The position numbers were made by a program, and so were the translations under genes. 64,000 bases of DNA from Alloascoidea africana (lineage: Eukaryota; Ascomycota; Alloascoideomycetes; Alloascoideales; Alloascoideaceae), in the NCBI GenBank assembly GCA_030581615.1, contig JAKTTT010000070.1:1-64000 (forward strand), in the 5' to 3' direction. The notes under the pieces are model-generated. The model had not been told where the DNA came from. It did not search any database and saw only the letters and a program-made list of their open reading frames with translations. Positions 7,750 to 61,312 of the stretch are shown here, piece by piece; position 1 is the first letter of the stretch, and each line of letters opens with the position of its first letter.

Positions 7750-8125
7750 TGGCTCGGACGGCGTAATTGGACGAGACTGGTGCAAAATAGAACTTTGGGG
7801 GATGCGGTTGCAAAAACAAGAGGATGGAGAGGAGCAAGAAAAATCAAAACCAGAATCAGAATCGACTTCCCAGCCGAACAAGGAGGGCGCGTCACGTGGG
7901 CGAGAGGAGCGCAGCCGCTGGACCGGGCGAAAATACTCGAGCACGGAGCATTGGGATTGGTACTGGGTGCTGGGTGCTGGGTATCGTTGGGGTCTGGGGC
8001 ATGGATCCTGGTCTGGGCGTGAACGGCCGATTCGATCGTGGGCGTGGTCGTGAAGCTGGAGCTGGAGCTGTTCTGCTGGTGGTTGAGATGGACTTTCCAT
8101 CTCTTCAATCCACGCATCCCCCACG
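7750..8125. promoter_or_regulatory. bidirectional promoter between LSC1 and SMN
   Basis: A 376 bp gap between divergent ATGs. It is GC-rich relative to the window and has a short run of TGGGTGC-type repeats near 7965-7985. No TATA box is obvious. Long open frames on both strands here lack conserved content. Confidence 0.5.
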
Positions 8126-8768
8126 ATGGAAGAGAGAATCGTAAGAACGGTCTTTGAGTTTGGGGGCTGGAATCCAGTGTACTAATTGGATCTGCGAAGG
8201 AGATAGACACAAGCTCGAAAGACGCTTGGGACGATTCGGTGCTGGTGGAGGCGTGGGATCGAGCCGTCGATGAGTATAAAGTGCGTGCCATAATGAGGGA
8301 GATGCGAGAGTGAACGCTAACGTGTTGGATAGAAATACCACAAAGACTGCGATGTAGATATGGAAAACGGAGCCGAGGACACGCATGAGGAGGATACAAA
8401 GCCCGATCAGCCAACCTCGGTGCAAAAAGACCAAGGCGAAGATGAAGATGAAGATGAAGATGGACCTGCCCAGGAAAGAGAAGAGGAAGAAGACATAGAA
8501 AATGAAACCCAGCCCACGCCAATTGACCCACAGCACAAGCCCAGTGCAAATGAAACTCCTCCTGATGTTTCATCGACCGGGAACAAGTCAAGCTCGTCCC
8601 CTGAAAAGTGAGTTGTAACGTTAGTCTTGTTTTTGTCCTTTCCTAACGCGTCTCTTGTCTAGAGAGCTCCTGTCGGGCATGGACGAGGCCACCAAAAACC
8701 TCGTCATGGCATGGTACTGGTCGGGGTACTACAAGGGATTCTACGACGGCCAGAAGGCAAACAAGTAG
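8126..8768 (+). CDS. SMN1: survival motor neuron (SMN) orthologue, 4 exons
   Basis: Core of the SMN complex that loads Sm rings onto spliceosomal snRNAs. Proposed exons are 8126-8140, 8200-8280, 8333-8607 and 8663-8768, giving 158 aa (S. pombe Smn1 152 aa). Exon 2 encodes the Gemin2-binding helix, [16 protein letters not shown], and runs into EYK-KYHK at the exon 2/3 junction, like S. pombe. Exon 3 is an acidic, Pro/Ser linker. Exon 4 encodes the C-terminal YG box, [17 protein letters not shown] (residues 137-153), which mediates SMN self-association. Introns start GTAAGA, GTGCGT and GTGAGT, with TACTAAT, GCTAAC and CCTAAC branch sites. The exon 2 acceptor could be AAG at 8199 or, 3 nt later, GAG at 8202; both stay in frame. 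ARP8 follows 163 bp downstream. Confidence 0.9.
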
Positions 8769-8931
8769 CAGTAAATACATGACTAAACGGACTAAATTCT
8801 GTCTTTCCATCTCCATAATGATATTGATATTGATATTGATATTCTTCAAAACACCCATGCATCAGTGCCTCTTCTTCTTCACCACTCTCCATCTCCATCA
8901 CAGGCCCAGTGTTGTGTGCGAGATACCTGCG

Positions 8932-59501: not shown

Positions 59502-61274
59502 TCAATCCTTTAGCCGCTCCCATATCTGGATATAGCATTCACTTAAAAACATGAGTTCCTTTTGCACAGATTGTACAATAAGATCTTGAATCTGAAACCA
59601 ATTTGAGCCGGCTTTATCATAGAGATAAACCTTCCAAACATGATTTGTAATTGTATCATCGATAATAACAGACTTGTAATCAGCAGAACCCGTTCCACCA
59701 TTCCGATGACCTGAACCTGAACTTGAGCTCAAACTCGACGAAGTTACTCCTGCAGTCGAAGCAGAAGAAGCAGTCGATGAAGACGCAACATCACGGAGCT
59801 CATGGGCAATGTTTGCGACGAGTCGGTAATGCGTGCCCTTTTGAGGCTTCTTATCTACAAGATATGGCGACATGTCCAATCTGTCAAGGGTTTCAACAGA
59901 GGGGAAAGTAATAACTGTTCTGTTAACCTCATCCACAAGACTATTTTCGTTAAACCGCCGAATGTGGAATATGAGATACGGTGGGAGTGTGACCAATTGG
60001 TATCGGTTTATTGAAGTTGCTGTATCGTGTACCTTTTCCCCGTTGTATTTCGCAAGCAGTGAAAGAAATGAAACTTGAGATATGCTATCGCTATTTTCAG
60101 ACTTGAACAAAGGAATATCTGGGAGATCCAAGGAGAGGCACAAGAATGGCATCGTCTTAACGGACGTGTGGGTTTCCACTTTATTATTCACAATCTTTTG
60201 TGTCATTACTTCAAGCTTACCTTGGAAGATCGAGTGCAGAAAGCTTGACATTGGTTTTGTCCTTGAGCCTCCAAGAGCAAGATGCATCACGTTCAGGAAC
60301 CACATTAGAAACAAGAATGGATCTGATTGTGTTATTAATGAGAACTTCTTATTCGAGTAAAAAGAAACGTGTTGCAGGAGCTCGTGTGGTGAGACGTGCG
60401 ACTTGAAAGCTTTTGAGCTCCATAACTTGGAAACTAGGGTGCTAAATCTCTTTAATAGTTCTCTTGCGCTTGAATTTGAAACTCCTTTGGCCAGAAAACG
60501 CTCATAGTCTCTAGAAATGATAAAATTCCGGAGCGGTGTTATATGGGCAAGAGAATGTAATACTACATTGCTGTAATCGTTTTGTCGAATATTATTCATC
60601 CCAATGAAGCCAGGTCTATATGGTCGATGGTTTAAATCGTAAGCCAAATCTGTCGACTTGTCTAGCATCTGGATCTGTTGTTTTGTGTATGTCGGATTGA
60701 CCTGGTACTTTATGTCATTCAATGCATGCGCTTCTACCTCATATCCCTCTGGTAGAACATAAATCTTGAGCGTTGTAAGATTTATAAAAACATGGTGAGA
60801 CTCGTCCACAGAATGAAGGTAAGCATAAGAAGTTTTACCTCGGCCTTGGAGATATCGTCCGCACTGAAGACAGGCATAAATGTTCGTACTAGCAAGACTT
60901 ATCGAACACAGCTTTTCAAAATCAAAGTCGAGGCGGGTTCGGTCCACTGTTTCTAAATAGAGGTTTTGCAACTGAGATGGTTCTTCCTCTTCTACTTGCA
61001 ATTCGTGGTCCTCGCCATCCGAAATGCCGTTCTCAACATTAGCTCCTCCATCTGCGTTGTCCAAACTCAGCTGATGTCTCGGTAAAGTTCTTTGTCGTTT
61101 CTGAGCCCGTTCATTGTTGTCACCATTTTCCCTATCTACTGCTGTTGTCATCGCTTTTCCACTAGTATCGTACCCTACTCGCAGAAATTCTTGAGAAGGT
61201 TGGCGTTCGGGTGTTGTTAATGAAACAGGGTGTGAGGATGTTACTTTTGGCCATATTATTTTGGTACGGCTCAT
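59502..61274 (-). CDS. SAD1: tri-snRNP assembly factor Sad1/USP39, catalytically dead USP
   Basis: Splicing factor needed for U4/U6.U5 tri-snRNP assembly or stability, 590 aa, unspliced. After an acidic N-terminus comes a UBP zinc finger (YACLQCGRYLQGRGKTSYAY, about residues 130-200) and a USP fold: GFIGMNNIRQNDYSNVVLHS, FKSHVSPHELLQHV, LMWFLNVMHLALGG, FLCLSLDLPDIPLFK, LPPYLIFHIRRF and a C-terminal YIQIWERLKD. The catalytic cysteine of active USPs is Asp here (NIRQND), as in human USP39 and yeast Sad1, so ubiquitin cleavage is not expected. A Ser/Gly-rich loop of about 45 residues interrupts the C-terminal part. Its ATG is only 38 bp from that of the divergent prolidase gene. Confidence 0.95.
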   Translation of the reverse strand: MSRTKIIWPKVTSSHPVSLTTPERQPSQEFLRVGYDTSGKAMTTAVDRENGDNNERAQKRQRTLPRHQLSLDNADGGANVENGISDGEDHELQVEEEEPSQLQNLYLETVDRTRLDFDFEKLCSISLASTNIYACLQCGRYLQGRGKTSYAYLHSVDESHHVFINLTTLKIYVLPEGYEVEAHALNDIKYQVNPTYTKQQIQMLDKSTDLAYDLNHRPYRPGFIGMNNIRQNDYSNVVLHSLAHITPLRNFIISRDYERFLAKGVSNSSARELLKRFSTLVSKLWSSKAFKSHVSPHELLQHVSFYSNKKFSLITQSDPFLFLMWFLNVMHLALGGSRTKPMSSFLHSIFQGKLEVMTQKIVNNKVETHTSVKTMPFLCLSLDLPDIPLFKSENSDSISQVSFLSLLAKYNGEKVHDTATSINRYQLVTLPPYLIFHIRRFNENSLVDEVNRTVITFPSVETLDRLDMSPYLVDKKPQKGTHYRLVANIAHELRDVASSSTASSASTAGVTSSSLSSSSGSGHRNGGTGSADYKSVIIDDTITNHVWKVYLYDKAGSNWFQIQDLIVQSVQKELMFLSECYIQIWERLKD

Positions 61275-61312
61275 CTCGACAAATCAAACTGGTACAGACA
61301 ATATTCAATATC

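Follow-up and report, generated by a model that had tools for sequence, protein, structure and literature searches.

Does a genome that looks like that of a budding yeast keep SMN, a protein that baker's yeast has lost and that in people causes spinal muscular atrophy when it is in short supply? A sequence-only reading of the first 64,000 bases of an Alloascoidea africana contig (C70:1-64000, hereafter the window; the genome comprises 23,180,953 bases in 138 contigs) had proposed an SMN orthologue hidden in four small exons, with a Gemin2-binding helix at one end and a C-terminal YG box at the other. SMN has been described as lost from budding yeast, and fungal SMN consists of only the Gemin2-binding helix and the YG box, neither of which is dispensable in S. 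pombe, the Tudor domain being missing in fungi (PMC8287954, cited throughout, like PMC8287938, from excerpts).

We rebuilt the gene from the DNA letters, keeping the donors fixed and enumerating 80 combinations of acceptors. When spliced, the four exons on the forward strand (Table 1) gave an open frame of 158 aa that ended at a stop codon, or of 157 aa with acceptor 8203 in place of 8200. Eight of the 80 combinations were free of internal stops, and only two of these (8333 and 8663, with either 8200 or 8203) read the YG box and reached the stop codon at 8766-8768 in frame. The proposed structure was borne out, the two SMN domains being correctly ordered, and we infer that the gene is transcribed and spliced in this way. 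The three introns would measure 59, 52, and 55 nt. The TAG end of introns 2 and 3 was shared by eight other introns of the same genome that we placed by eye in five zinc-cluster genes, an HSF-like gene, the ATP synthase alpha gene, and an Arp8-like gene. The join between exons 2 and 3 is supported by the residues YKKYH, which match FKKYH of S. pombe SMN across the junction. Intron 1 is a probable prediction and the least certain of the three, with an AAG or a GAG acceptor; a further possible intron of the Arp8-like gene (GTATGT donor) would likewise have an AAG end. Acceptor 8207 (TAG) would be more typical for intron 1, but it places exon 2 out of frame with exon 1 (8126-8140), and use of an upstream ATG at 8088 as the start does not rescue it (worked by hand). 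It had also been claimed that an annotation restricted to ORFs would miss the gene, which is fair, as the two ORFs of at least 120 aa that overlap it are both antisense. Four tandem GATATT units are found in the raw sequence just 3' of the stop codon (window 8820-8843).

Table 1. Predicted elements of the A. africana SMN gene, in window positions
Feature	Position	Strand	Remarks
SMN exon 1 (MEERI), start codon	8126..8140	+	Weakest exon; 5 residues without homology
Intron 1, GTAAGA donor, TACTAAT branch-like, AAG end	8141..8199	+	GAG at 8202 possible; atypical acceptor
SMN exon 2, Gemin2-binding helix at 8221-8268	8200..8280	+	Pfam PF20636, 32.4 bits; genome-wide E 1.5e-6
Intron 2, GTGCGT donor, CGCTAAC branch-like, TAG end	8281..8332	+	Joined YK/KYH resembles S. 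pombe FKKYH
SMN exon 3, mainly acidic low-complexity linker	8333..8607	+	No Pfam Tudor match at E 1
Intron 3, GTGAGT donor, TCCTAAC branch-like, TAG end	8608..8662	+	Read from DNA
SMN exon 4, YG box at 8700-8750, stop	8663..8768	+	Pfam PF20635, 20.2 bits (cut-off 21.3); S. pombe SMN

A profile search of the joined protein, named beforehand as a test that could refute the proposal, was positive. The SMN_G2-BD model (PF20636) matched above its cut-off (32.4 vs 22.2 bits), and the SMN_YG-box model (PF20635) matched with an E value of 0.0005 and 20.2 bits, 1.1 bits under its cut-off of 21.3. No Tudor domain was matched by Pfam in the joined protein at E 1, and fungal members do not require one. 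Among the PDB sequences the top match, first of 13 at E ≤10, was 7bb3_A (E 4.5e-9), aligned at both ends; 7BB3 is a structure of S. pombe SMN (PMC8287954). Other SMN entries followed at 0.01 to 0.09 (5xjl, 4rg5, and 2leh) and at 1.1 (4gli). As a control, we searched six-frame translations of the window and of other loci of the genome (284,196 bases, 11,503 stretches of at least 15 aa; L002 was excluded because it duplicates part of the window) with three SMN peptides, for all of which the SMN locus ranked first. Its E value was 1.9e-6 with the S. pombe YG peptide (runner-up, 0.86), 0.0018 with the S. pombe G2 peptide (runner-up, 2.5), and 0.0006 with the human G2 peptide (runner-up, 0.58). At E ≤1, the G2-binding model matched the SMN locus and nothing else in the whole genome, where the product of exon 4 likewise matched only itself. 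The YG-box family model found no match in a six-frame scan of the whole genome, although the YG box of exon 4 exists.

Each of the two Pfam matches is short (26 and 27 aa) and the linker is compositionally biased, so that one might think of a chance likeness, in which an acidic low-complexity stretch happens to lie between two short helices resembling the ends of SMN. We consider this very unlikely, because the G2-binding model by itself reached an E value of 1.5e-6 against the whole genome. Furthermore, the two ends share a strand and are no more than 640 bases apart, each was clearly first in the 284 kb six-frame test, and the match to S. pombe SMN has an E value of 4.5e-9. Judged by its sequence, 8126-8768 is a real SMN orthologue of the ordinary, Tudor-less fungal type.

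The sequence-only reading had called for a search for partners of SMN in the same genome. Five of the eight SMN-pathway family searches were positive (SIP1/Gemin2, G2-binding domain, Gemin7, PRMT5, and pICln/Voldacs). Gemin2 was matched by Pfam SIP1 with 118.5 bits; the match spans positions 2-215 of the 215-position profile and lies in a single open frame on contig C82. Profile searches also matched Gemin7 (42.1 bits), PRMT5 (210.4 bits), and pICln/Voldacs (51.8 bits). The family models for Gemin6 and Gemin8 gave no match in the whole genome. These negatives carry no weight, because the YG-box model also missed an exon that exists; in S. pombe, Gemin6, 7, and 8 are described as weakly conserved (PMC8287938). 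We tentatively infer that both proteins are present in A. africana. The search for U2 snRNA found two divergent copies with the same score (137.5 bits), both of them aligned to the full length of the model, and the RNA carries a Sm-site-like AUUUUUGA at about position 96. The two copies, at G000:C3:335870-336822 (L029 and L030), are divergently oriented and about 570 bases apart. Mago nashi was matched in four pieces (G000:C42:174117-174793) and is therefore kept along with SMN; an excerpt of PMC6351623 describes Mago as an exon-junction component that some budding yeasts have kept and others have lost. Both SMN domains are found in order, on one strand and at one locus, in a genome that also has matches to Gemin2, Gemin7, PRMT5, pICln, and U2.

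We then compared the YG box, which consists of interleaved YxxxYxxxY and GxxxGxxxG motifs, with its homologues by eye on the PDB and Pfam alignments. GxxxGxxxG is intact, with all three glycines of the YG box, and the Trp is preserved, as is the WDD motif of the protein. The third Tyr of the Y-motif is replaced by Phe. The positions of the s-motif, SxxxSWxxSxxxT (PMC8287938), are occupied by Asn, Ala, Ser, and Lys, i.e., by small residues at two of the four; S. pombe SMN too has Lys at the first of them (PDB alignment). The Lys of A. africana SMN is found at the position of human Thr274 and S. pombe Thr138, and a Tyr, in FYDGQ, at the position of human Tyr277 (equivalences for Thr274 from PMC8287954). 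The fungal consensus at the latter site is LYEGQ, from which S. pombe departs by having Ala (PMC8287954). In S. pombe, the T138I mutant shows defects both in growth and in oligomerisation (PMC8287954), and the human change T274I, found in spinal muscular atrophy, disturbs oligomers, one of the two papers grading the human effect as only moderate (PMC8287938 and PMC8287954). In view of these effects, and of the grading of the human one, the Lys is a point to test and not proof of altered function.

The same Lys at the Thr position of the s-motif would suit a decaying gene, in which the domains are still legible but correct expression has ceased and Gemin2 works alone, as proposed for Brr1 of S. 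cerevisiae. The atypical acceptor of intron 1 (AAG or GAG vs TAG in the eight introns placed by eye) and a YG box under the Pfam cut-off point in the same direction. We nevertheless regard decay as improbable, since no stop interrupts the spliced frame, the WDD motif and all three glycines of the YG box are unaltered, and the genome also keeps Gemin7, a protein known to act in the SMN complex. A functional SMN gene is therefore the reading that we retain below.

The description of the genome as budding-yeast-like was supported by the similarity of two proteins. ATP synthase alpha scored 927 bits with 5lqx, 905 with 2hld, and 885 with 5fl7 in the PDB sequences (which we take to be Ogataea, S. 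cerevisiae, and Yarrowia, respectively) and at most 791 bits with everything below these three yeast entries among the best 60 listed. Importin beta-3 scored 1025 bits with 3w3z, presumably S. cerevisiae, as compared with 546 bits with 6xte, presumably human. Across residues 38-641 of the importin, 9 of 13 CTG codons were aligned with Leu and one each with Ser, Thr, Met, and His; the one CTG available for comparison in ATP synthase alpha was also aligned with Leu. CTG thus appears to be read as leucine, which makes the CUG-Ser and CUG-Ala clades unlikely, and the host genome is best read as belonging to a budding yeast that uses the standard code. A likeness to Geotrichum, for which 24.2 Mb, short introns, and little conservation of splice signals are described (PMC4479816 and PMC5499181), was considered, but ATP synthase alpha scored higher with 5lqx and 2hld than with 5fl7, the presumed Yarrowia entry. 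The presence of SAD1 'beside' SMN had also been put forward as informative. The SAD1/USP39-like gene, with UCH and zf-UBP domains (Pfam), is at 59502-61280, and it says nothing on the retention of SMN because it is 50 kb away and SAD1 also exists in S. cerevisiae.

Another claim had been that the genome contains many introns. This rests on individual genes, in which introns were placed by eye; a scan for splice motifs (donor GTRNGW, CTAAY within 200 bases, first AG within 30) over the window and 20 genome stretches, 264 kb in all, did not show an excess, with 201 matches as compared with 285 in the control, a single first-order shuffle. With the five strong donors alone, there were 55 matches in the same 264 kb and 74 in the shuffle. 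Introns may be few, or their signals may be too loose to be caught by such a scan. On the reverse strand of the window, at 19780-42601, we also noticed by eye five ORFs that start inside a Zn2Cys6-like motif. In each of them an apparent intron occupies the equivalent position, immediately ahead of one of the Cys codons of the cluster. This looks like a local family expansion, and other genes lie between some of the five ORFs.

Taken together, it is very probable that the locus is the single-locus SMN orthologue of a fungus of the budding-yeast lineage, with the two-domain fungal layout, and that it most likely works as S. pombe SMN does. The working proposed for it is drawn from this homology. 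pICln and PRMT5 would prepare the Sm proteins; the N-terminal helix of SMN would bind Gemin2, which would hold the SmD1/D2/F/E/G set, and an acidic, flexible linker would separate this helix from the YG box. The YG-box helix would self-associate, giving rise to SMN oligomers, and would dock a Gemin6/7/8 module. The complex would finally close the Sm ring around U snRNAs, U2 of this genome being an example.

SMN is already known in other fungi, and the interest of the A. africana gene lies in its lineage. Among the papers listed and the excerpts consulted, with few subscription journals covered, there was no report of SMN in a Saccharomycotina species, and we make no claim of priority; the word SMN does not occur in the main text of PMC10581693, PMC6351623, PMC4479816, PMC5499181, or PMC8476143. 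Retention of SMN and several of its partners in a budding-yeast lineage bears on when the protein was lost and on whether the loss is tied to that of introns, which can be tested by genome comparison. A more specific proposal, which we advance tentatively and consider somewhat doubtful, is that SMN, Gemin2, and Gemin7 form a working complex that has been kept, as has Mago, in a budding yeast whose CUG code is standard, so that SMN would have been lost inside the budding yeasts, and that the YG box, with Lys at Thr274 and Tyr at Tyr277, oligomerises through an altered dimer-dimer contact. If this were true, the altered contact would be a natural experiment on the disputed parallel and antiparallel models of the SMN oligomer. 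In addition, the A. africana protein is a naturally small SMN in which a position related to disease carries an unusual residue.

Among the known systems, S. pombe SMN (7bb3 and 4rg5) provides the best PDB match at both ends. It has the same arrangement of a Gemin2-binding helix, an unstructured middle, and a YG box, with no Tudor domain, and a similar length, the S. pombe constructs being numbered to residue 152 (PMC8287938). It differs in having Ala141 where A. africana has Tyr (human Tyr277) and Thr138 where A. africana has Lys, while A. africana SMN has an acidic linker and a predicted four-exon gene. Human SMN shares the G2-binding helix and the YG-box glycines (entries 5xjl, 2leh, and 4gli were matched), but no Tudor domain was detected in the A. 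africana protein. The latter is about half as long as human SMN. The Brr1-only system of S. cerevisiae resembles that of A. africana by the presence of a Gemin2-family protein, and differs from it in that A. africana keeps SMN and Gemin7.
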